From Aeromicrobium flavum (GTDB lineage Bacteria > Actinomycetota > Actinomycetes > Propionibacteriales > Nocardioidaceae), in contig NZ_BJZQ01000002.1 of NCBI RefSeq assembly GCF_007992115.1, positions 1 through 64,000 of the forward strand: a DNA stretch of 64,000 nucleotides, in the 5' to 3' direction. This document shows, in pieces, positions 12,904-56,145 of this stretch. The notes below the pieces were generated by a model. It did not search any database, was not told the DNA's origin, and saw only the letters and a program-made list of their open reading frames with translations. Position 1 is the first letter of the stretch. Each line of letters opens with the position of its first letter. Both the position numbers and the translations under genes were made by a program.

Positions 12904-14250
12904 TCAGAGGGCGAGCGACGTGCGGACGACGCCGGCCAGGTGATCGGCGATCTCCTGGGCCTGGTCGGCCGTCGGCGCCTCGACCATGACGCGGACGAGC
13001 GGCTCGGTGCCGGACGGGCGCAGCAGCACGCGACCGGTGTCGCCGAGCTTGGCCTCGGCGGCCGCCACCTCGGCCAGGACGGTCTCGTGGTGCTTCGCGC
13101 CGTCGCGGTCGACGCCGCCGACGTTGACGAGCACCTGCGGGAGGCGCTCCATGACGGCGGCGAGCTCGGCCATGGTGCGGCCCGAGGATGCCATCTCGGC
13201 CGCGAGGTGCAGCGCGGTCAGCGTGCCGTCGCCGGTGGTGGCGTGCCGGCTCATGATGACGTGTCCCGACTGCTCGCCACCGAGCATGTGGCCGCCGTTG
13301 CGCATGGCCTCCAGCACGTAGCGGTCGCCGACGGAGGTGTGCACGACGGTGATGCCGGCAGCCTCCATCGCGTGCGTGAAGCCGAGATTGCTCATGACGG
13401 TGGCTACCACGGTGTCGTTGTCCAGCAGTCCCTCGCGCTTGCCGCGCAGGGCCAGGATGGCGAGGATCTGGTCGCCGTCGACGACCTCGCCGAACTGGTC
13501 GACCGCGAGGCACCGGTCGGCGTCGCCGTCGAAGGCGAAGCCCACGTCGGCCCCGCGCTCGACGACGACGCGGCGGAGGTCGTCGAGGTGCGTGGACCCG
13601 CAGTTCTCGTTGATGTTGAGGCCGTCGGGATCGGCGTGGATCGTGATCACGTCGGCACCGGCGCGGATGAACGCGTCGGGGGCGGCCTCGTGCGTGGCGC
13701 CGTTGGCGCAGTCCAGGACCACGCGCAGGCCGTCGAGCCGGTTGGGCAGCGTGTCGAGGAGGTGCCGGACGTAGGCGCCGAGGCCGGCGTGGCTGTCGCC
13801 GACGCGACCGACGCCCGCACCGGTCGGGCGGTCCCACGGCTCCTGGAGGCGCTGCTCGATCGCAGCCTCGATCTCGTCGTCGAGCTTGACGCCGCCGCGC
13901 GCCAGGAACTTGATGCCGTTGTCGGGCATCGGGTTGTGGCTGGCGGAGATCATCACGCCCATGTCGGCCTCGAGGAAGGCCGTCAGGTACGCCGCGCCGG
14001 GCGTGGGCACCACGCCGAGGCGGTGCACGTCGACCCCCGCAGACGCCAGACCCGCGACCACCGCGGCTTCGAGGAACTCCCCCGAAGCGCGGGTGTCGCG
14101 GGCGACGACTGCCGTGGGTCGCTGGTCGGCGAAGGCACCGGCCTCGCCCAGCACGTGGGCGGCGGCCACGGAGAGGTCGACGGCGAGCTCCGCGGTCAGG
14201 TCCCGATTGGCCAGACCGCGAACGCCGTCGGTGCCGAAGATCCGACCCAT
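12904..14250 (-). CDS. glmM: Phosphoglucosamine mutase
   Basis: GlmM converts glucosamine-6-phosphate to glucosamine-1-phosphate for UDP-GlcNAc. The 448-residue product starts [15 protein letters not shown], the standard opening. It has the phosphoserine loop [11 protein letters not shown] (Ser104), the metal loop FDGDADRC, the sugar loop GGEQSGH and the phosphate loop [11 protein letters not shown]. It follows rpsI by 13 bases, which is the usual rplM-rpsI-glmM order in actinobacteria. Confidence 0.97.
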
Positions 14251-19546: not shown

Positions 19547-19924
19547 ATGGGCACGGCCATGACCTGGGACGACGTCGAGGCGTTCCTGCTGCGGTTCCCC
19601 GACACCGAGAAGAGCACCTCGTGGGGCATGCCCGGCGTCAAGACCGGCGGCACGCTCGTCGCCTGGTGGCGCGACCGCGACGACTCCCCCGGCTGCCTGG
19701 CGTTCAAGGTGGATCGCGCCGAGCTCGAGGCTCTCGTCGAGGACCCGGACACCCCGTACTTCACGATCGAGCACTTCCGGAAGTTCGACTCGAACGCCGT
19801 GCTCGTGCGTCCCGAGGACGTCGATCCCGCCGAGCTGCGCGAGCAACTGACCGAGGCCTGGATCGTCACCGCCAAGGTGAAGGTGCGCAAGGCCTGGCTC
19901 GCCGAGAACGGCCGGGACGCGTGA
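19547..19924 (+). CDS. MmcQ/YjbR family DNA-binding-fold protein
   Basis: This 125-residue protein has the YjbR hallmarks. These include the ETSWG-like segment KSTSWGMPGVKTGG, a FKVDRAELEAL strand and PYFTIEHFRKFDSNAVLV. YjbR proteins have a CyaY-like fold and an unclear role, often annotated as DNA-binding. A second ATG four codons on is possible. Its stop overlaps the methyltransferase start (GTGA), placing it in the truA operon. Confidence 0.85.
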   Translation: MGTAMTWDDVEAFLLRFPDTEKSTSWGMPGVKTGGTLVAWWRDRDDSPGCLAFKVDRAELEALVEDPDTPYFTIEHFRKFDSNAVLVRPEDVDPAELREQLTEAWIVTAKVKVRKAWLAENGRDA

Positions 19925-20499
19925 GTCACTACTTCGATCCGACCCCGCAGACTGAGGACGAGCGGCGCACCGTCACGGTCGAGATCTGGGGGCGCCGGCG
20001 CGAGTACACGACCTCGACCGGCGTCTTCTCCGGCGGTGGGCTCGACAAGGCCACCGCGATCCTGCTGGCCGAGAGCACTCCTCCCCCGCCCGGCACGGTG
20101 GTGCTCGACCTCGGCTGCGGCTGGGGCCCGATCGCCTGCTCGCTCGCCGCGGAGGGTGCCACCGTGTGGGCCGTCGACGTCAACGAGCGGGCGCTCGAGC
20201 TGACCGCCCAGAACGCGCAGGGGCTCGACGTGCACACCGCCCTGCCCGACCAGGTGCCGCCGGACGTCCGCTTCGATGCGATCTGGTCGAATCCGCCGAT
20301 CCGGATCGGCAAGGAGGCGCTGCACGAGCTGCTGCTCACGTGGCTGCCTCGGTTGCGTCCCGGGGGCGAGGCACGCCTCGTCGTCGGCAGGAACCTCGGC
20401 GCCGACTCGCTCCAGCGCTGGTTCATCGACCGGGGGCATCCCACCGAGCGCGTCGCCAGCAGCAAGGGCTTCCGCATCCTGTCCGTCCGCGCGACGTGA
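19921..20499 (+). CDS. RsmC/MTS-type SAM-dependent methyltransferase
   Basis: The 192-residue protein has the SAM-binding VLDLGCGWGP (residues 61-70) and the base-flipping motif SNPPIRIG. These define the methyltransferase small domain family, whose RsmC member modifies G1207 of 16S rRNA. It is shorter than E. coli RsmC because it lacks the N-terminal duplicated domain; this form is common in actinobacteria. The GTG start overlaps the YjbR stop (GTGA). It is the last gene of the truA-NUDIX-YjbR run. Confidence 0.85.
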   Translation: MSHYFDPTPQTEDERRTVTVEIWGRRREYTTSTGVFSGGGLDKATAILLAESTPPPPGTVVLDLGCGWGPIACSLAAEGATVWAVDVNERALELTAQNAQGLDVHTALPDQVPPDVRFDAIWSNPPIRIGKEALHELLLTWLPRLRPGGEARLVVGRNLGADSLQRWFIDRGHPTERVASSKGFRILSVRAT

Positions 20500-20502
20500 C
20501 GG

Positions 20503-20538
20503 TAGCGTGACTCCCGTCAATCCTGAATTCAGATTCAG
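20503..20538 (+). promoter_or_regulatory. Operator-like palindrome before the acyl-CoA carboxylase (site A)
   Basis: TGAATTCAGATTCA at 20524-20537 is identical to the 14 bases at 34268-34281 in the island. It sits between a -10-like TAGCGT (20503-20508) and the AGAGGAG ribosome-binding site, so a bound repressor would block elongation. The site places this gene in the island's regulon although it lies 9 kb from the nearest other site. Confidence 0.7.
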
Positions 20539-20548
20539 AGGAGTCCCC

Positions 20549-23500
20549 GTGAAGGTCCTGATCGCCAACCGCGGCGAGATCGCCGCCCGGATCGCCCGAG
20601 CCGTCGAGGCACTGGACTGGACGGTGCAGCGCGTCCACACCGCGCGCGAGGCGCCGACCGACGAGGACAGCTGGCTGCTCCCCCGCGACGGCTTGGCCGG
20701 CTACCTCGACGTCGAGGGCATCGTGGCCGCCGCCGTGCTGAGCGGCTCGGACCTCGTCCACCCCGGGTACGGATTCCTCAGCGAGAGCGCCGAGCTCGCC
20801 ACCGCCTGCGCCGAGGCCGGGCTGACCTTCGTCGGCCCCGACCCCACGACCCTCGAGCTCTTCGGAGACAAGGGCAGCGCCCGCGAGCACGCGCTCGCCC
20901 ACGGGGTTCCGGTGCTGGACGCGACGGGCCGCGACGCCTCGCTCGCCGAGGTGGCGGCCCTCCTGGAGCGGCACCCCGCCGGGATCATGATCAAGGCCGT
21001 CTCCGGTGGCGGCGGGCGCGGCATGCGCCCCGTCACCGACGCCGCCGACGTCGCCGAGGCCTACGACCGCTGCCGGTCCGAGGCCGAGCGCGCCTTCGGC
21101 AACGCCTCCGTCTACGCCGAGCGACTGCTCGCCAGCGCCAAGCACATCGAGGTGCAGGTGCTCGGTGACGGCACGGGCGTCGTCACGCTCGGCGAGCGCG
21201 AGTGCTCGGTGCAGCGTCGCCACCAGAAGGTCATCGAGGTCGCGCCGAGCCCGTCCCTGACGGATGCCCACCGCGAGCGCCTCACGACGTGGGCCAAGGA
21301 CCTCACCGCTCCCCTCGGCTACCGCGGCCTCGCCACGGTCGAGTTCCTCGTCAACGCCGACCTGCTGCGCCGGGGTGGTCCGCTCGACGCCGTGTTCATC
21401 GAGGTCAACCCACGGCTGCAGGTCGAGCACACCGTGACCGAGGAGGTCACCGGCACCGACCTCGTGCGCGCCCAGCTGCTCGTGGCGGCCGGGCAGAGCC
21501 TCGCCGAGGCCGGCGTGCCGACCGACGCCGGTCCGCGCCCCGGCGTCGTGGCGATCCAGTCGCGCGTCAACGCCGAGGAGGTGGTCGGCAGCGCGGTCGT
21601 CTCCACCACCGGCACCGTGACCGACTTCGCGACGCCCGAGGGCGTCCGCGTCGACAGCGGCATCACCGTGGGCACCGTCGTCGACGGCACGTTCGACTCC
21701 CTGCTCGCGAAGGTCGTCACCGTCACCGAGGGCGATCACGCGGCCGCCTGCGCGGACGCCGACGCCGCCGTCACCGCGCTGCGGATCGAGGGCGTGCGGA
21801 CCAACGTCCCACTGCTGCGCGAACTCCTGGCGCACGAGGTCGTCCGCAGCGGCGAGGTCACCACCGCGTGGCTCGACCGACTGCTGGCCGACCGCGCCGA
21901 CGCCGAGCGCACCACCGACGAGTCCGGCACGATCGCCTCGGTCATGAACGGCACCGTGCTGGCCGTGTCGGTCAAGCCCGGCGACACCGTCGGCCCGCGG
22001 ACTCCGCTGGCCACGCTCGAGTCGATGAAGATGGAGCACCCCGTCACCGCCGGCTTCGCCGGAACCGTCACCGAGGTCCTGGTCGCCGCCGGCGACCAGG
22101 TCGCGGTGGGCCAGACCGTCGCTGTGGTCTCCCCCGACGACACCGTCCACCACCAGCACGCCGAGGACGCCGACGTCGACCTCGACCACGTCCGCCCCGA
22201 CCTGGCCGAGCTGCAGGACCGGATCGCTCGCACCCGCGACGCCGCGCGGACCGAGGCCGTCGCCAAGCGGCACGCCCGCGGGCACCTCACCGCGCGCGAG
22301 TGGGTCGACCTGCTCGTCGACGAGGGCACCTTCACCGAGTACGGCTCGCTGACCGTGGCGGCCCAGCGGCAGCGCCGCAGCCTCGAGGACCTCATGGCCA
22401 ACACGCCCGCCGACGGGATCATCACGGGCCTGGGCACGATCAACGGCGACGACTCGGGCGACGCCCGCCGCTGCGCCGTCCTGGCCTACGACTACACGGT
22501 GCTGGCCGGCACGCAGGGCTACTTCAACCACAAGAAGACCGACCGGCTGCTGGAGCTCGCACGCGACCGGAAGCTGCCGGTCGTCCTGTTCGCCGAGGGC
22601 GGCGGCGGCCGCCCGGGCGACACCGACACCGCCGACCTCCTGGCCGCGGGCTTGAACGTGCGCACCTTCGCCACGATGGGCTCGCTGAGCGGCGTGGTGC
22701 CGACGGTCGGCATCCTCACCGGTCGCTGCTTCGCCGGCAACGCGGCCCTGCTCGGCTGCTGCGACGTCATCATCGGCACCGAGGACGCGAACCTCGGCAT
22801 GGCCGGGCCCGCCATGATCGAGGGCGGCGGCCTGGGGATCTTCACGCCCGAGCAGATCGGCCCGATGTCGGTGCAGGGCCCGAACGGCGTGGTGGACATC
22901 GTCGTCGGCGACGACGCCGAGGCGATCTCGGTCGCACAGCGCTACCTCTCCTACTTCCAGGGCGGACGCACCGCGTGGGACGCCGTCGACCAGCGCCGCC
23001 TGCGCCACGCCATCGGCGAGAACCGCAAGCAGGTCTACGACATCCGCACGGTGATCGACGCCCTCGCCGACACCGACAGCGTGCTTGAGCTGCGCCGCGA
23101 GTTCGGCACCGGCGCGATCACCGCGCTGGTCCGGATCGAGGGCCGCCCGTACGGCCTGGTCGCGAACAACCCAGCGCATCTGGGCGGCGCGATCGACGCC
23201 GACGCCGCCGACAAGATGGCCCGGTTCCTGCAGCTGTGCGACGCGCACGGCCTGCCGGTGGTGTCCCTGTGCGACACCCCCGGCTTCATGGTCGGGCCCG
23301 AGAGCGAGCAGACCGCCACCGTGCGCCACTTCAGCCGGCTGTTCGTGATCGCCTCGCACCTGACGGTGCCGATGACCACGATCGTCCTGCGCAAGGCCTA
23401 CGGGCTGGGCGCCCAGGCGATGGCGGCCGGCGGCTTCACCCAGACCACCGCCACCGTCTCGTGGCCGACCGGCGAGATCGGCGGCATGGGCCTCGAGGGC

Positions 23501-23734
23501 GCCGTCCGGCTCGGCTTCTCCAAGGAGCTGGCCGCGATCGAGGACGAGCAGGCCCGCGCCGAGCGCTACGAGGAGCTCGTCGCCCAGCACTACGAGGCCG
23601 GCAAGGCGATCAACGGCGCGATGAAGCTGGAGCTCGACGAGGTCATCGACCCCGCCGACACCCGCCGCTGGATCGTCGCCACCCTCGGCGACTGGGCCGG
23701 CGAGGGCTCGCACCGGTATGTCGACACCTGGTGA
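20549..23734 (+). CDS. Single-chain biotin-dependent acyl-CoA carboxylase (BC-BCCP-CT)
   Basis: The 1061-residue product joins all parts of an acyl-CoA carboxylase. Biotin carboxylase spans about residues 1-450, with the Gly-rich ATP loop GGGGRGM near 155 and EVNPRLQVEHT near 285. The biotin carrier domain has ESMKMEHP with biotinylated Lys494. The carboxyltransferase spans about 560-1061, with AYGLGAQAMAAGG. Actinobacteria mostly split these into alpha and beta subunits; single-chain forms are known and include long-chain acyl-CoA carboxylases. The substrate could be propionyl-, acetyl- or longer acyl-CoA. The GTG has AGAGGAG upstream. An operator matching the catabolic island suggests induction with it. 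Confidence 0.92.
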   Translation: MKVLIANRGEIAARIARAVEALDWTVQRVHTAREAPTDEDSWLLPRDGLAGYLDVEGIVAAAVLSGSDLVHPGYGFLSESAELATACAEAGLTFVGPDPTTLELFGDKGSAREHALAHGVPVLDATGRDASLAEVAALLERHPAGIMIKAVSGGGGRGMRPVTDAADVAEAYDRCRSEAERAFGNASVYAERLLASAKHIEVQVLGDGTGVVTLGERECSVQRRHQKVIEVAPSPSLTDAHRERLTTWAKDLTAPLGYRGLATVEFLVNADLLRRGGPLDAVFIEVNPRLQVEHTVTEEVTGTDLVRAQLLVAAGQSLAEAGVPTDAGPRPGVVAIQSRVNAEEVVGSAVVSTTGTVTDFATPEGVRVDSGITVGTVVDGTFDSLLAKVVTVTEGDHAAACADADAAVTALRIEGVRTNVPLLRELLAHEVVRSGEVTTAWLDRLLADRADAERTTDESGTIASVMNGTVLAVSVKPGDTVGPRTPLATLESMKMEHPVTAGFAGTVTEVLVAAGDQVAVGQTVAVVSPDDTVHHQHAEDADVDLDHVRPDLAELQDRIARTRDAARTEAVAKRHARGHLTAREWVDLLVDEGTFTEYGSLTVAAQRQRRSLEDLMANTPADGIITGLGTINGDDSGDARRCAVLAYDYTVLAGTQGYFNHKKTDRLLELARDRKLPVVLFAEGGGGRPGDTDTADLLAAGLNVRTFATMGSLSGVVPTVGILTGRCFAGNAALLGCCDVIIGTEDANLGMAGPAMIEGGGLGIFTPEQIGPMSVQGPNGVVDIVVGDDAEAISVAQRYLSYFQGGRTAWDAVDQRRLRHAIGENRKQVYDIRTVIDALADTDSVLELRREFGTGAITALVRIEGRPYGLVANNPAHLGGAIDADAADKMARFLQLCDAHGLPVVSLCDTPGFMVGPESEQTATVRHFSRLFVIASHLTVPMTTIVLRKAYGLGAQAMAAGGFTQTTATVSWPTGEIGGMGLEGAVRLGFSKELAAIEDEQARAERYEELVAQHYEAGKAINGAMKLELDEVIDPADTRRWIVATLGDWAGEGSHRYVDTW

Positions 23735-23781: not shown

Positions 23782-24597
23782 TCAGTCTTCGTCCGTGAGG
23801 ATCTCCAGCGCCGTCTGGGCGTCGATACGGCGCTGACCCGTCACCACGGTCCAGGCGACGTCCTCGGGAGCGAGTCGGCCGCGCAGCATCAGGAGTCGGG
23901 AACGGTCGGAGCCGGTGAAGCTCTCGCGCTCAGCGAACGGATCGTCGAGGCAGGCAAGCAGCGCCACCGCGTCGCGCAGGTGGCGCTCGGGGTCGCGGGA
24001 GTCGGTCGTGTAGGCGGCGGCCTTCAGGACGAGAGCCCCGAACACGCTCGGCACCGAGACCGTGGTGATGGTTCCGGGGTTGACCTCCAGGCGGGCGTTG
24101 ATGGTGCGTCGAAGCGCCTGTGTCCCGCCCTCGATGCGGACCATGTCGCGTCCGGCGAGCCGTTCGGTGACCCTCGGAGCGTGGTGGTCAGAGATCAGGA
24201 CGTCGACGATCTCTTCGGCGTCGTCGTCGAGCCGAGCGCCGACCAGATCGATCCTGCTGGCACCTCTCACGAAGCGGTGAGCCGTGCTGTTGCGGGGATC
24301 GACGGCAGGGCGAAGCTCGTAGCCGAGGGAGCGCAGGGCGGCGGAAGTCTGGGAGGCAACCCCGCGGGAGGTCTCGACGTGAAGCACGATGTCGACGTCG
24401 TTCGTCGGGCGCACGACCCCCAGACCGTGGTGGATGGCGTGCAACTGGGTCATGAGCCCACCGACCAGCGTCCACCTGTCGGTCGGCAGCACGTCTGCGA
24501 TCTCCGCGACGTTCGGCCAGGGGTCCGGCCAGCCCCCGGCGCCGGCGGTGACGTCGATGGTGGGGCGCTCGCCCGGATGATTCTCAACGTCGGGCAT
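23782..24597 (-). CDS. AbiEii-like nucleotidyltransferase toxin
   Basis: Type IV AbiE toxins are nucleotidyltransferases that arrest growth, reported to modify tRNA or bind GTP. The 271-residue product has VGGLMTQLHAIHHG (Gly46-Gly47) followed by RPTNDVDIVL with Asp67 and Asp69, the nucleotidyltransferase signature. A later VLKAAAYTTDSR helix matches the KxxAxxxR-type motif. The ATG lies inside the end of the preceding gene (14-base overlap), so the pair is coupled. It converges on the carboxylase with a 47-base gap. Sequence is somewhat less G+C-rich than neighbours, which fits horizontal gain. Confidence 0.75.
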   Translation of the reverse strand: MPDVENHPGERPTIDVTAGAGGWPDPWPNVAEIADVLPTDRWTLVGGLMTQLHAIHHGLGVVRPTNDVDIVLHVETSRGVASQTSAALRSLGYELRPAVDPRNSTAHRFVRGASRIDLVGARLDDDAEEIVDVLISDHHAPRVTERLAGRDMVRIEGGTQALRRTINARLEVNPGTITTVSVPSVFGALVLKAAAYTTDSRDPERHLRDAVALLACLDDPFAERESFTGSDRSRLLMLRGRLAPEDVAWTVVTGQRRIDAQTALEILTDED

Positions 24598-25270
24598 TTT
24601 CGCGGAACAACTCCAGTCTCCGAACCAAGGCCCGCTCTCCCACGCCTCGTTCGCGCGGGTCGAGGGAGGTCGCGGCGTCGATGGCGGCGAGCGTGCTGTT
24701 GAGCGTCGCCAAGCGGTGGACGAAGTCGAGGTCCATCGACGTGTGGCGCAGCGTGATGGATCCCGTCATGTCCTCGCGCAACCGGTGACGGCGCACGAGG
24801 TCCGCGATCCGACTGGTATGGAGGTAGCCGTCGACGATGGCGGCGTCCTCGACGAGCCCGAGCCGCCGGCGTCCGGGGATGACGAGTTCCTCTCGGACGC
24901 GGTCGCCGGCCGAGCGGTGACCGGACCAGGTCGTGACGGTCGCGCGATCACGCAACCGGATGGCCAGCTCGCTCGGGTCGGTGATGTCGAGCAAGCTGGC
25001 GCGCAATCGGTACTGCTGGGTGTCGCCTAGGTCCAACGGTGCCGCGCCCGCCAGTAGCGCGACAGCTCCCCACGCAGTGTGCTCTGCCCACGTCCGAGTC
25101 CGGCCGGTGCCGCGCTCAGCGCGGTGGCGCTCCACCGATGTGCGGTCGAAGACGCCGCGCGCGACACGGACGATGTCCCCGGCCTCGGCGAGAACGCGCA
25201 CCTGGCGCGCTTTGACGCCCAGGAGGTCAGATGCCTCTTGGGTGGTCAGGAAGTCGCCACGGAAGATCAT
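24584..25270 (-). CDS. AbiEi-like antitoxin with N-terminal HTH
   Basis: In AbiE systems the first gene encodes the antitoxin, which also represses the operon. This 228-residue protein starts with an excisionase/MerR-like helix-turn-helix (TTQEASDLLGVKARQVRVL, residues 10-28). The rest is charged, with a conserved-looking LRHTSMDLDFVHRL segment. Position, coupling to the toxin and HTH give the assignment; I cannot confirm the AbiEi C-terminal fold. The GTG one codon earlier is less likely than this ATG. Its promoter carries a palindrome. Confidence 0.6.
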   Translation of the reverse strand: MIFRGDFLTTQEASDLLGVKARQVRVLAEAGDIVRVARGVFDRTSVERHRAERGTGRTRTWAEHTAWGAVALLAGAAPLDLGDTQQYRLRASLLDITDPSELAIRLRDRATVTTWSGHRSAGDRVREELVIPGRRRLGLVEDAAIVDGYLHTSRIADLVRRHRLREDMTGSITLRHTSMDLDFVHRLATLNSTLAAIDAATSLDPRERGVGERALVRRLELFRENARR

Positions 25271-25273
25271 CAC

Positions 25274-31875: not shown

Positions 31876-33041
31876 CGGGGCACCTCGTTGAAGGGGACGC
31901 CCTTGTCGGGGCGGTGGTCGGCGGGCAGGCCCAGGACGCGCTCGGAGACGACGTTGCGCATGATCTCGGACGTGCCGCCCTCGATCGAGTTGCCCTTGGC
32001 ACGCAGGTAGCGGAAGCCCGGGCCGCGGCCGAGGAAGCTGGCCGAGACGGTGCGGACCATGGTCCAGTCGTCGTACTGCAGGCCCGCGTCGGGATCGAGC
32101 TCGAGCGCGAACCCGGAGATCTGCTGCGCCTGCTGGGCGAACGCCAGCTTCATCGCCGAGCTCTCGGGCCCGGGCTGGCCCACGGCCAGCTGCTGGCGCA
32201 GCCGCTCGCCGGCAAGGCGGGTCACCTCGGTCTCGACCCACCACGACATGAGGCGGTCGTGCTCGGCCGAGGAGCGCACCGACGGATCGTTGCGCCACCG
32301 CTCGGTGACGATCCCGATCTGCCCGGCCTCACGCTCGGCACCGCTGCCGATCGCGACCCGCTCGTTGTTCAGGGTCGTGGTCGCCACGCGCCACCCGGCA
32401 CCGACCGCTCCCACCCGGTCGGCATCGGGGACGCGGACGTCATTGAGGAAGACCTCGTTGAACTCGGCCTCGCCGGTGATCTGGCGCAGCGGGCGCACGT
32501 CGACGCCCGGGTCGGCCATGTCGACCACGAAGTACGACAGCCCGGCGTGCTTGACCACCGTCGGATCGGTGCGCGCCACGAGGATCGCCCGCTGCGCGTT
32601 CTGGGCGCCGGACGTCCAGACCTTCTGCCCGTTGACGATCCACGTGTCACCGTCGAGGACGGCCTTGGTCGCCACGCCTGCCAGGTCGGAGCCGGCGCCG
32701 GGCTCGCTGAACAGCTGGCACCAGATCTCCTCGCACGTGAAGAGCGGCCGCAGGTAGCGGTCCTGCTGCTCGGGTGTGCCGAAGGCGATGAGGGTCGGCG
32801 CGGCCATGCCGATGCCGATGCTGTTGCGGCCCAGGTCGGGCGCCGGGGCGCCGGCCTCGGCGAGCAGCTGCTCCACCACCTGCTGCTCGTCGCGCGGCCG
32901 GTCGAGGCCGCCGCGCCCGACGGGGAAGTGCACCCACGCAAGGCCGGCGTCGAACCGGGCGCCGAGGAACTCGACGGGGTCGACGGTCTCGAGGTCGAAG
33001 CGGGCCAGCAGCGCCGCCACCTCCGCACGCACGTCAGTCAC
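31872..33041 (-). CDS. Acyl-CoA dehydrogenase family protein, partner subunit 2
   Basis: The 389-residue product carries the flavin-binding core, with [15 protein letters not shown] and [14 protein letters not shown]. Near the C terminus it reads GGTSEIMR (residues 355-357 GGT), so the residue equal to the catalytic Glu of medium-chain enzymes is Gly. That is the pattern of heteromeric FadE chains. Together with the short neighbour it probably forms one enzyme. The GTG start lies inside the end of the ACAD10/11-type gene (8-base overlap), so the three are coupled. Substrate could be a branched or ring-bearing acyl-CoA. Confidence 0.88.
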
Positions 33042-34251
33042 GCGAGGCCACCTTCCGCAGCTCGTGGCGCGCGAGGGCGTTCTTGTGCACCTCGTCGGGG
33101 CCGTCGGCGAAGCGCAGCGTGCGCACCTGGGCGAACCACTCCGCGATCGGGAAGTCCTGGCTCAGGCCGCCACCACCGTGGACCTGGATGGCCTTGTCGA
33201 CGATCCACTCGACCGTGCGGGGAGCCGCGATCTTGATGGCCTGGATCTCGGTGTGCGCACCCTTGTTGCCGACGGTGTCCATCAGCCACGCGGCCTTGAG
33301 GGTCAGCAGGCGGATCTGCTCGATCTTGACGCGCGACTCGGCGATCCAGTCGCGGATGACGCCCTGCTCGCTCAGCGGCTTGCCGAAGGCGACCCGGTCG
33401 TTGGCGCGCGCGACCATCAGCTCCAGGCTGCGCTCGGCGATGCCGATCAGGCGCATGCAGTGGTGGATGCGGCCGGGCCCGAGGCGGGCCTGGGCGATGG
33501 CGAAGCCCTCGCCCTCCCCCGCGATGAGGTTCGAGACCGGGACGCGCACGTCGCGGAAGATGACCTCGGCGTGACCGCCGTGGTCGCGGTCGTCGTAGCC
33601 GAAGACGCGCATGCCGCGCTTGATCTCGACGCCCGGGGTGTCCCGGGGAACGAGGACCTGCGACTGCTGGCGGTGACGGTCCGCGGTGGGGTCCGTCTTG
33701 CCCATGACGATCATGATCTTGGCGTTCGGGTTCATCGCGCCGGAGATGAACCACTTGCGGCCGTTGATGACGTACTCGTCGCCATCGCGCACGATCGAGG
33801 TCTCGATGTTGGTGGCGTCGGAGCTGGCCACGGCCGGCTCGGTCATCGCGAAGGCCGAGCGGATCTCACCGGCGAGCAGCGGCTCGAGCCACTGCTTCTT
33901 CTGCTCGTCGGTGCCGAAGTGGCTGAGCACCTCCATGTTGCCGGTGTCCGGGGCCGCGCAGTTCGTGGCGGTCGGCGCGATGTGGAGGCTGCGGCCCATG
34001 ATCTCGCACAGCGGGGCGTACTGGAGGTTCGTCAGGCCCGCGCCCTCGGCGCCGGGGTGGAACAGGTTCCACAGGCCGCGCTCGCGGGCGGCGGTCTTCA
34101 GGCCCTCGATCACCGGCGGCGGCGACCACACGTCGGGGGCCGCTTCGAGCTGCTCCCAGAAGGTGGCCTCGGCCGGGTAGACGAACTCCTCCATGAAGGA
34201 CGTCAGCCGCTCGATCAGGTCGGTCGTGGTGCGGTCGTAGGCAAATTCCAC
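33034..34251 (-). CDS. ACAD10/11-type acyl-CoA dehydrogenase (paralogue 1)
   Basis: The 405-residue product differs from the two that follow it. It starts with an [14 protein letters not shown] helix, has [14 protein letters not shown], and near the end ADGPDEVHK with Asp383 in place of the catalytic Glu. This Asp and the GPDEVH tail mark the subfamily of human ACAD10 and ACAD11. In those proteins the dehydrogenase domain works with a kinase domain to remove a phosphorylated hydroxyl group. A second member lies at 51627-52862. The GTG has GGGAG upstream. It heads the 34251-30006 operon, from the promoter at 34286-34314. Confidence 0.88.
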
Positions 34252-34267: not shown

Positions 34268-34314
34268 TGAATTCAGATTCAACTCAGGCTAGCGCGTGGA
34301 CCGCCCCGTGGCAA
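34268..34314 (-). promoter_or_regulatory. Promoter and operator of the acyl-CoA dehydrogenase operon (site C)
   Basis: On the minus strand TTGCCA (34314-34309) and TAGCCT (34291-34286) are 17 bases apart. The operator TGAATTCAGATTCAA (34268-34282) follows directly, so a bound repressor would cover the transcription start. Its 14-base core is identical to site A. Confidence 0.7.
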
Positions 34315-34335: not shown

Positions 34336-35031
34336 TCAGGCCGACTCGGGCGACGACGCGGGCAGCGTCATGCCGAGCGCGTTGAACCAGAGCCTCGTCG
34401 CGGTGTCGACCATCGAGTCGACGTCCCAGTCCTCCCCCAGCGCGAAGGAGTAGTACGCCAGCCGGCTGACCATGCTGGCCAGGGCGCGCGACGTCATGAG
34501 GGGATCGAGACTGCGATCGGCCAGGCCGGCCTCCTGCATCGACCCGATCCACCGCGCGACGCGATCGGTGAAGAGCCTCGATCGCTCGACGCGCAGGCGA
34601 CGGAAGTCGGGGTTGATCGTGGCCACCTGCTCGAGCAGGACCATCAGCTGGGCGTTGCGCCGGTACGCCTCGAAGTAGGCGCGATTGGACGCCTCGAGCA
34701 CGCCGGCGATGTTCTCGGGCGCCTCCTCCACGCGGGGCAGGCCCGGGTGGAGCATGTCGTCCTGGGCGACCTGCAGGACGGCGGTGAAGACCTCGTCCTT
34801 GCTGTCGAAGTAGGTGTAGAACGTGCCGATCGACGTGTGCGCCTCGGTGGCGATGTCGGTCAGGCGCGAGTTGATGAAGCCGTCGCGCTCGAAGACCCGC
34901 CGGGCCGCCGCGACGAGCGACTCGCGGGTCCGCTGGCCGCGAGCGGTCACGGGCAGCGCCCGGACCTGCCGCTCGTCGACCAGCGAACCCGTGTCGTGGC
35001 CCTCGGGCCGCCCGCTACCGGGACTGCTCAC
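34336..35031 (-). CDS. TetR family regulator 1
   Basis: The 231-residue protein has an N-terminal extension of about 30 residues, then a TetR helix-turn-helix (SRLTDIATEAHTSIGTFYTYF, split over residues 55-76). A ligand-binding domain follows, with LMVLLEQVATINPDFR. Its GTG start overlaps the end of the ABM-domain gene by 17 bases. It therefore ends the thiolase operon that begins at 37373 under site D, and would regulate itself if it binds that site. Regulators of this type often bind acyl-CoA thioesters, which is consistent with the island. Confidence 0.88.
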   Translation of the reverse strand: MSSPGSGRPEGHDTGSLVDERQVRALPVTARGQRTRESLVAAARRVFERDGFINSRLTDIATEAHTSIGTFYTYFDSKDEVFTAVLQVAQDDMLHPGLPRVEEAPENIAGVLEASNRAYFEAYRRNAQLMVLLEQVATINPDFRRLRVERSRLFTDRVARWIGSMQEAGLADRSLDPLMTSRALASMVSRLAYYSFALGEDWDVDSMVDTATRLWFNALGMTLPASSPESA

Positions 35032-37432: not shown

Positions 37433-37462
37433 GGTCTAATATGAATCTTACTTCAGTTTCAA
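37433..37462 (-). promoter_or_regulatory. Promoter and operator of the thiolase operon (site D)
   Basis: On the minus strand TTGAAA (37462-37457) and TAGACC (37438-37433) are 18 bases apart. The operator TGAATCTTACTTCAG (37442-37456) fills the spacer. The same region faces the divergent MFS gene 70 bases away, so one site could affect both. Confidence 0.7.
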
Positions 37463-39050: not shown

Positions 39051-39728
39051 TCAGCTCGCCGGTGTCTCGATCTTGAGCGCGTTGGCCCACAGCTCGGTGA
39101 GCGAGTCGACCATCTCGTCGATCGTCCAGCTCTCGCCGAGCACGAAGCGCGAGTAGGCCGCACGGGCGACCATGCCCGACAGGAACGAGGCCGCCATCAT
39201 CGGATCGATGTCCGCTCCGGCGACGCCGTCCTGCTGCATCTGCCGGATGCTCTTGGCGTTGCGCTGGACGAACGACTCGCCGCGCTTGCGCCGCAGCTCA
39301 CGGAAGTCCTCGTCGATGCTGGCCACCTGCTCCAGCAGGCGCATGAACTTCGAGAACCGCTGGTACGACTCCAGGTAGGCGCGGTTGGCCTTGCGGATCA
39401 TCGAGACCGGGTCGTCGCCGTTGGTCACCTGTCGCACGTCGGGGTGGAGCATCTCCTCCTCGACCTCGGCCAGCACGGCGGAGAAGATCTCCTCCTTGCT
39501 GTCGAAGTAGGTGTAGAAGGATCCGGCCGAGATGCCCGCCTCGGTGGTGATGTCCACCAGGCGCGCATCGAGGAAGCCGTCCCGCTCGAAGACGACGCGT
39601 GCGGCCTCGACCAGCTTGGTCCGGGTGCGCAGCCCGCGCGGGGTGGTGGGCAGGTCGCGAGGCGTCGACGTACCGGAGAAACCGGCCGAGCGACGGTGAC
39701 GCGCCGCACTCTCTGGCGTGCTACTCAT
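39051..39728 (-). CDS. TetR family regulator 2
   Basis: The 225-residue protein has an N-terminal tail of about 35 residues and a helix-turn-helix (VDITTEAGISAGSFYTYF). The ligand domain has MRLLEQVASIDEDFRELR, closely like TetR 1 (LLEQVATINPDFR). The two regulators are clear paralogues. The ATG at 39728 lies seven bases after the -10 of its own promoter, so the message is probably leaderless. It has its own copy of the shared operator (site E), separate from the MaoC gene upstream. Which of the two TetR proteins binds the sites is not known. Confidence 0.88.
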   Translation of the reverse strand: MSSTPESAARHRRSAGFSGTSTPRDLPTTPRGLRTRTKLVEAARVVFERDGFLDARLVDITTEAGISAGSFYTYFDSKEEIFSAVLAEVEEEMLHPDVRQVTNGDDPVSMIRKANRAYLESYQRFSKFMRLLEQVASIDEDFRELRRKRGESFVQRNAKSIRQMQQDGVAGADIDPMMAASFLSGMVARAAYSRFVLGESWTIDEMVDSLTELWANALKIETPAS

Positions 39729-41137: not shown

Positions 41138-42715
41138 TCACTCGACCGCGCGGATGGTCCGCAGGTCGACGGTGCGGTACGTCGCCTCGAAGGTGAGTCC
41201 GTCGCTGAAGTAGTTCGCGATGGGCCACAGCAACGGGACGAGGTTGGTCTGCTCCAGCAGTGCGGCCTCGGCCTTCGCCCAGTTCTCGCAGCGCTCGTCG
41301 CCGAGCTTGCTGGTGGCCAGCGCCGCGTACTTGTCGAAGTCGTCGTTGCGCGTGCGGCCGAAGTTGTACGAGCCGCCCTCGCCGAGGTTCGAGCTCATCT
41401 TCGTGACCAGCGGGTACGGATGCGGTGCCGCACTGATGTACGGGAAGACGATGATGTCCCACTCGCCTTCGTCGCCGTAGACGATGCCGGCGGCCTGGGC
41501 CTGCGTGCCGTTCGTGACCTTGACCTCGATCCCGATCTTGCGCAGCGCGTCCGCGACGTAGTCCGGGCCGGAGTTCTGGACGTCGTACCCGAGCAGGCGC
41601 AGCGTGAGCTTCTTGCCACCGGGACCGTAGCCCGCCGCCTCGAGGTCGGCCTTGGCCTGGTCCTCGTCGAACTTCAGGCCCACCTTGCCGTTGGCCTCGG
41701 TGTAGCAGTCCATGTTCGGGGTGACGACGGTGTTCACGGCCTCGCCGACACCGAAGGACGCGGCCTTGGTGTACGCGGCGGCGTCGATCGCCTGGGCGAC
41801 GACGCGGCGCAGCTTCTCGTCGGACATCGGCGCCTCGGGCCGCTGGTTGAACGTCAGCGAGTCCGCCTCGAACGCCTTGCCCTGGATGAACTCGTGACTG
41901 CCCTCGAGCCGCTTGGAGTCGCGGCCGAGGATGCCCGCGATGTCGGTTTCGCCGGTCTCGAACAGGTTGGCCCGGGTCGCGTCGGCGGTGATGACGCGGA
42001 AGGTGAGCTTGGCGGGAACGCTGTCGGCGTCCTCGAGGGCCGGCGAGTCCCATGCCTCCAGCTCGTAGGTGTCACCGCGCTTGAGCGAGGTGACCTTGTA
42101 CGGCCCCGAGCCCTGCGGCGTCGTGGCGAGCGCCTCGAGGTCCTTCAGGCCCTTGGGGCAGATCACGAAGGCGGTCGACATGCTGTCGAGGAGATCCGAG
42201 TGCGGGTCCTTGACCTCGATCGAGACGGTGTTGGCCTCGTCGTCGGCCACGATCTGCTTGACGCCGCCGGCACCGAAGAGACGGCCGGTGTAGACCGAGC
42301 CCGTCTTCGGGTCGGCCAGGCGCTTCATCGAGTTCGCGATGTCGGTCGCGGTGAGGTCGGTGCCGTCGCTGCACGTCAGGCCCTCACGGAAGGTCATGTC
42401 GATCTTGGTCGTCGTGACCTCCCAGTCCGTGGCCATGGCGGCGACGTACTCACCCGTCTTCATGTCGCGTCGGACCGGGGTGTCGTAGAGCGCTTCGTAC
42501 ATCTGCACCGCGCCCTGGTCGGCGGCGGTGAGGAAGGGGTCGAAGGTGTCGACGTCGTTGCGCAGGTCCATCACGACGGCGTCGGGGGCCTTGCCCGCGA
42601 CGCGGTCGCCGCCGTCGGAGGAGTCCCCGCAGGCGCTGAGCAGGGAGGCCGACAGCAGCAGCGCTCCGGCGGCGCCGAGAGCTCGTAGCGGAGTGCGTGT
42701 TCGGGAGGGGATCAT
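41138..42715 (-). CDS. ABC transporter solute-binding lipoprotein, family 5 (paralogue 2)
   Basis: The 525-residue precursor has a lipobox with Cys29 (LLSAC). The mature part shares long stretches with paralogues 1 and 3, such as RNDVDTFDPFLTAADQG, PQGSGPYKVTSLKRG and NWAKAEAALLEQTN. I chose the ATG at 42715, which leaves a clean signal peptide; the frame upstream is not conserved. The gene heads a run with two enoyl-CoA hydratases, tying uptake to beta-oxidation. Its promoter carries site F, and a hairpin follows its stop. Confidence 0.92.
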   Translation of the reverse strand: MIPSRTRTPLRALGAAGALLLSASLLSACGDSSDGGDRVAGKAPDAVVMDLRNDVDTFDPFLTAADQGAVQMYEALYDTPVRRDMKTGEYVAAMATDWEVTTTKIDMTFREGLTCSDGTDLTATDIANSMKRLADPKTGSVYTGRLFGAGGVKQIVADDEANTVSIEVKDPHSDLLDSMSTAFVICPKGLKDLEALATTPQGSGPYKVTSLKRGDTYELEAWDSPALEDADSVPAKLTFRVITADATRANLFETGETDIAGILGRDSKRLEGSHEFIQGKAFEADSLTFNQRPEAPMSDEKLRRVVAQAIDAAAYTKAASFGVGEAVNTVVTPNMDCYTEANGKVGLKFDEDQAKADLEAAGYGPGGKKLTLRLLGYDVQNSGPDYVADALRKIGIEVKVTNGTQAQAAGIVYGDEGEWDIIVFPYISAAPHPYPLVTKMSSNLGEGGSYNFGRTRNDDFDKYAALATSKLGDERCENWAKAEAALLEQTNLVPLLWPIANYFSDGLTFEATYRTVDLRTIRAVE

Positions 42716-42783
42716 GGTCAACCTTTCGGACGTGAGCCTGAAGACGAGTTCAGCTCTTGACCTGAGTGTGACCCAAGTCACCG

Positions 42784-42811
42784 CGCATATCAATACTGAA
42801 TTCAGTTTCAC
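42784..42811 (-). promoter_or_regulatory. Promoter and operator of solute-binding gene 2 (site F)
   Basis: On the minus strand GTGAAA (42811-42806) and TATGCG (42789-42784) are 16 bases apart. The operator TGAATTCAGTTTCAC (42797-42811) overlaps the -35 and contains the 10-base palindrome CTGAATTCAG. Confidence 0.65.
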
Positions 42812-56116: not shown

Positions 56117-56145
56117 CTGAAACGCGATTCAACTCTGGCTAGAGT
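56117..56145 (+). promoter_or_regulatory. Promoter and operator of the thioesterase gene (site J)
   Basis: CTGAAA (56117-56122) and TAGAGT (56140-56145) are 17 bases apart. TGAAACGCGATTCAA (56118-56132) overlaps the -35. The ATG is seven bases past the -10, so the message is likely leaderless. Confidence 0.7.

Follow-up and report, generated by a model that had tools for sequence, protein, structure and literature searches.

A single-chain long-chain acyl-CoA carboxylase (LCC) of Aeromicrobium flavum has probably exchanged an ancestral regulon, shared with an acyl-CoA ligase under a TetR regulator of its own, for the TetR control of a neighbouring beta-oxidation island, where it would act on a medium-chain, long-chain or branched acyl-CoA. 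The stretch of DNA analysed, called the window below, comprises 64,000 nt of a 3.09-Mb genome (labelled G000); G-numbers denote the compared genomes and L-numbers the sequence loci taken from them. The LCC enzyme family is already known, while the probable regulatory capture of an LCC is the new point and the part meriting specialist attention.

The carboxylase gene and its operator

LCC is encoded at 20549..23734 on the plus strand from a GTG start, and was assigned by Pfam, a structure match and the carboxyltransferase tree. The chain of 1061 aa fits the LCC length of about 1060-1090 aa and carries, all on the plus strand, a biotin carboxylase (BC) domain (aa 2-443, 20552..21877; Pfam and motifs), a biotinyl (BCCP) domain (aa 463-526, 21935..22126; Pfam and motifs) and a carboxyltransferase (CT) domain (aa 574-1044, 22268..23680; Pfam and CT tree), in the order BC, BCCP, CT. 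The LCC motifs are kept, namely the ATP-grasp motifs of BC, ESMKM with the biotinyl lysine K494, and the glycine-rich motifs of CT. The length, domain order and coordinates given in the initial annotation are thus all correct, and the listed ORF start at 20276 gains solely an overlap with the upstream methyltransferase gene. Located 3' of LCC is a gene pair at 23782-25273 on the minus strand, in which 24584-25273 has a weak AbiEi antitoxin match barely above the Pfam cut-off and the partner is without a Pfam match. An AbiEi-like pair also lies 3' of LCC in G088 (L046:10883-12368) and was not found at that place in G056.

Immediately 5' of the LCC ribosome-binding site, a pattern search revealed a putative operator, CTGAATTCAGATTCAG, at 20523..20538, in the gap behind an rsmC-like methyltransferase gene (19921..20499, plus strand) which synteny places about 15 kb away in relatives and which now adjoins LCC. 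The 14 bp of its core, TGAATTCAGATTCA at 20524-20537, are repeated unchanged at 34268-34281, in front of an island acyl-CoA dehydrogenase gene; this second copy is presumably the site C with which the core had earlier been equated. In the entire genome the exact pattern TGAAT-N4-ATTCA occurs at these 2 sites, against a base-composition expectation of about 0.08 exact sites per genome. With up to one mismatch there are 8 genomic sites, 5 of them inside the window, compared with 1 for the reversed-pattern control and with 4.3 expected from composition alone, an expectation that exceeds the control. The pattern lies in the LCC promoter region and is conserved in the relative G077, and by these marks LCC was counted in the regulon. 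Judged from the sequence, the operator is real.

TAGCGT at 20504..20509 on the plus strand is by sequence a possible -10 element, in a context, GGTAGCGTGA, common to G077; a sigma-70 scan of the rsmC-LCC gap found no consensus promoter and did not detect TAGCGT. In the loci examined, GGTAGCGTGA is present at two LCC promoters only (G000 and G077); since similar strings are found upstream of other Aeromicrobium genes, its presence in both does not prove that they inherited it from a common ancestor. The LCC transcript might arise by read-through from the rsmC operon, since rsmC, on the same strand, ends 49 bp before LCC and the gap lacks a recognisable promoter in the scan. That the operator has no function for LCC, and that LCC has been transcribed with the rsmC-truA operon since the deletion described below, is nevertheless improbable, as G077 retains 18 identical bases 5' of LCC amid diverged flanks and the chance of an exact operator in the intergenic gap is about 1e-6.

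The beta-oxidation island and its TGAAT sites

The island encodes acyl-CoA dehydrogenases, enoyl-CoA hydratases, a MaoC protein, a thiolase, acyl-CoA ligases and SDRs. Its transport genes specify an MFS transporter and an ABC transporter of the peptide type, the latter with solute-binding proteins, and its regulators are two paralogues of the TetR/EthR type. The operator core shared with LCC (34268..34281, found by pattern search like those that follow) is upstream of the acyl-CoA dehydrogenase gene at 33034-34251 on the minus strand. Operators with 1 mismatch lie in the gap between the thiolase (-) and MFS transporter (+) genes (37442..37455), where a solute-binding protein gene begins (42797..42810; gene 41138-42811, minus strand), and in the gap between an acyl-CoA ligase (-) and a thioesterase (+) gene (56118..56131). 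Weaker TGAAT-type sites precede further units, so that sites stand in front of most units of the island, and several of them are found at equal positions in related genomes. Outside the island, a 1-mismatch site at L014:1501-1514 (contig 16 of G000, 71089) may mark a remote member of the regulon; it lies in the gap separating a phosphotriesterase-family gene from an ADH_N_2 oxidoreductase gene.

The two regulators are TetR2 (39051..39728, minus strand), of the EthR_C type by domain match, and its paralogue TetR1 (34336..35031, minus strand), 51% identical by sequence comparison. TetR2 is the likely reader of the TGAAT operators, as predicted from an orthologue directly before LCC in Mumia. Furthermore, ACADb, an island acyl-CoA dehydrogenase traced at 80% identity or more, occurs in 9 of 12 LCC genomes versus 1 of 37 other Aeromicrobium genomes, and TetR2 homologues in 10 of 12 versus 9 of 37, figures for the co-occurrence of LCC and island that are inflated by shared descent and physical linkage.

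The proposed ancestral regulon and the missing block

In relatives LCC is arranged otherwise. LCC and a dedicated TetR gene point away from each other in five Aeromicrobium genomes (G056, G088, G037, G132 and G106) and in two from other genera (G057 and G014), and in all seven one or two TTGAC-N6-GTCAA palindromes lie between LCC and the divergent TetR or nearby. An acyl-CoA ligase gene is directly 3' of LCC in G106, G136, G057 and G014; in G056, G088, G037 and G132 it is close to LCC and has its own TTGAC pair. Genome-wide, the exact TTGAC-N6-GTCAA pattern is confined to the LCC and ligase promoters in G056 and G037, apart from one stray extra site in G037, while the G000 genome has none and G077 has one, located elsewhere. 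The G056 pairs, at the LCC/TetR and ligase/TetR promoters, are at L045:9825-9912 and 13640-13686. Ligase and LCC form an old pair, because about 20 loci from Pseudomonadota and Geothermobacter likewise have a homologous ligase next to LCC. Near LCC in three relatives, a sodium:solute symporter gene has TTGAC-N6-GTCAA upstream (L050:3791, L055:4403, L056:4587), which suggests that one acid is taken up, ligated and carboxylated. A literature search on this regulon found no relevant paper.

In G000 and G077, LCC directly adjoins rsmC. Both genomes lack the block made up of the LCC-TetR, the ligase, another TetR, a split carboxylase and an ABC transporter, and the new junction bears the TGAAT operator. 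No ligase orthologue is found elsewhere in the G000 or G077 genomes, the best matches being 30-32%. The proposed course is that ancestral control in the genus was a two-promoter regulon of LCC and acyl-CoA ligase, governed by the divergent TetR through paired TTGAC-N6-GTCAA sites; that a deletion of about 15 kb would have removed the regulator, the ligase and the neighbouring split carboxylase and joined LCC to rsmC; and that LCC would now be controlled by the TetR regulator or regulators of the adjacent island through the TGAAT-N4-ATTCA operator. The block in relatives also contains, beside the split CT, a short gene for a standalone biotinyl protein (L045:14430-14846, L046, L048), with a palindrome, TAAGCGTATGCTTA, 5' of it; biotinyl protein and split CT probably make up a further carboxylase that has a third operator.

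The direction of this change was judged from the LCC tree, in which G077 is sister to G037, a genome that retains the TetR/TTGAC state; flanking genes concur (TruA 98.5% identical), and no recombination between G000 and G077 is visible around the LCC start, where G077 resembles G037. Since G077 is sister to a genome in the old state, there were either two parallel changes or one change followed by a regain. Deletion with operator gain on two occasions is clearly favoured over an older new state with the block regained. The latter, in which this Aeromicrobium group started out with TGAAT control and G056/G088 and G037 regained the TetR-ligase block, seems rather doubtful: the operator and the -10-like string common to G000 and G077, which are not sisters, would agree with it, but TTGAC sites occur in the outgroups G132, G160, G106, G136, G094 and G149, most of which keep the TetR-ligase block, and the block holds the same position in G132, G056, G088 and G037.

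In the related genus Mumia, represented by G070 and by G064 from the same genus group, the TetR2 orthologue is followed directly by LCC and has a TTGAA-N6-TTCAA site 5' of it. The TGAAT junction of G000 and G077 and this TetR2 arrangement indicate that island-type control was acquired by LCC more than once. More tentatively, and with less confidence than the main explanation receives, LCC could be envisaged as shifting, on two or more independent occasions, between its own ligase-carboxylase TetR regulon and that of beta-oxidation, the reason being that alpha-carboxylation would be a real step in an undescribed fatty-acid or branched-acid route of the island. The whole presents a case of regulatory rewiring in which a dedicated repressor is lost and a neighbouring regulon captures LCC in two Aeromicrobium lineages, Mumia being arranged differently.

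Predicted function and comparison with known carboxylases

By the mechanism of the family, the BC domain would use ATP and bicarbonate to carboxylate biotin on K494, and the CT domain would then transfer this carboxyl group onto an acyl-CoA at its alpha carbon, yielding an alkylmalonyl-CoA. LCC would be de-repressed alongside the dehydrogenases, thiolase, hydratases, ligases and transporters of the island; because its own ligase is gone and it would be de-repressed with the island, the substrate, a medium-chain, long-chain or branched acyl-CoA intermediate, would probably be supplied by the island's ligases. Membership in the regulon points to a catabolic role. Against the island-control explanation it must be said that plain beta-oxidation offers no obvious step for a carboxylation. 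The traits expected of an LCC include a preference for long-chain acyl-CoA and a homohexameric form.

It was weighed whether the enzyme chiefly carboxylates propionyl-CoA or short acyl-CoA released by island beta-oxidation, serving as a second propionyl-CoA carboxylase (PCC). LCC shares a regulon with beta-oxidation genes, the G000 genome has methylmalonyl-CoA mutase genes, and LCCs also act on short chains; yet G000 encodes further split carboxylases together with BC genes belonging to them, the CT is 31% identical to the best PCC-like CT of G000, and relatives tie LCC to an acyl-CoA ligase instead of a propionate pathway, making such a role unlikely. Because other carboxylases exist, a role in propionyl-CoA carboxylation alone, or in fatty-acid synthesis alone, is less likely. 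The initial annotation's interpretation accordingly stands for a rare single-chain carboxylase bearing the island operator, is refined by assignment to the described LCC family, and is weak in its propionyl-CoA part. In the literature reached, including PMC6491548, the part that LCCs play in the cell is not settled, and the two regulons, one linking LCC across phyla to a particular acyl-CoA ligase and the other to a defined beta-oxidation island, offer concrete candidate substrates and inducers.

Of 49 Aeromicrobium genomes, 12 have a full-length LCC, as do 9 of 396 sampled Actinomycetota genomes (E 1e-180 or better, judged from match coverage), so that its description as unusual in actinobacteria holds as a matter of frequency. 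Most remaining Actinomycetota matches span the biotinyl and CT parts or CT alone; beyond actinobacteria, LCC is common in Pseudomonas, Marinobacter, Alcanivorax and others. Aeromicrobium genomes lacking LCC often have a standalone LCC-type CT, 50-54% identical (L031, L033, L035, L044 and others), and the two never occur together (0/37; Fisher p 0.005, kinship ignored). The idea that these standalone CTs belong to a split LCC whose BC is encoded alongside was rejected, as no BC lay in the stretches read in 3 genomes that carry such a CT (2 Aeromicrobium, 1 of another genus). In actinobacteria outside this class, an LCC-type BCCP-CT protein without a BC domain was observed (L184, L185, L186), with no BC gene within the 14-16 kb read around each.

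The enzyme is, by sequence comparison, a member of the LCC family, a described family that is rare in actinobacteria. In the CT tree its CT is grouped with those of LCCs, standalone LCC-type CTs and BCCP-CT proteins on a branch of 100/100 support, with long branches outside, and not with PCC/MCC-type CTs; the other CTs of G000 (contigs 26, 4 and 16) are 27-31% identical to it and fall outside the LCC clade. Pyruvate carboxylase and urea carboxylase were rejected, as NCBIfam scores were 504 bits against a cut-off of 965 and 408 against 1304, respectively. The top solved-structure match is PDB 4rcn, 'long-chain acyl-CoA carboxylase', over residues 3-1046 (E 9.8e-303), likewise a single BC-BCCP-CT chain of about 1060-1090 aa and homologous end to end. 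The next, the CT of PDB 5fif ('Carboxylase'; E 2.7e-188), which we take to be a Deinococcus single-chain carboxylase, has an LCC-type CT in common but is more distant, the comparison covering the CT stretch alone. The 4rcn enzyme is that of Tran et al. (Nature 2015), as cited in PMC4833862 and PMC4673880.

In Saccharopolyspora erythraea, SACE_3154 is also an actinobacterial single-chain LCC, likened here by description and not by sequence; it is an uncharacterised enzyme of group III, and LCCs are described as a separate, rare group with a proposed role in carbon and nitrogen metabolism (PMC6491548). SACE_4237 is likewise a multidomain single-chain carboxylase of an actinobacterium; it provides malonyl-CoA and is essential for fatty-acid synthesis (PMC6491548), a precedent for reading the A. 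flavum enzyme as a housekeeping acetyl-CoA carboxylase. Such a reading is very improbable. The 37 of 49 Aeromicrobium genomes without LCC show that it is non-essential in the genus and make use in fatty-acid synthesis unlikely, and its operator is of the catabolic type. Furthermore, SACE_4237 is an enzyme of about 200 kDa with a central domain and a CT of group V, apart from the LCCs, and is without palmitoyl-CoA activity (PMC6491548), whereas the A. flavum chain has 1061 aa and no additional Pfam domain, by which the eukaryote-type multidomain acetyl-CoA carboxylase was rejected as its identity.
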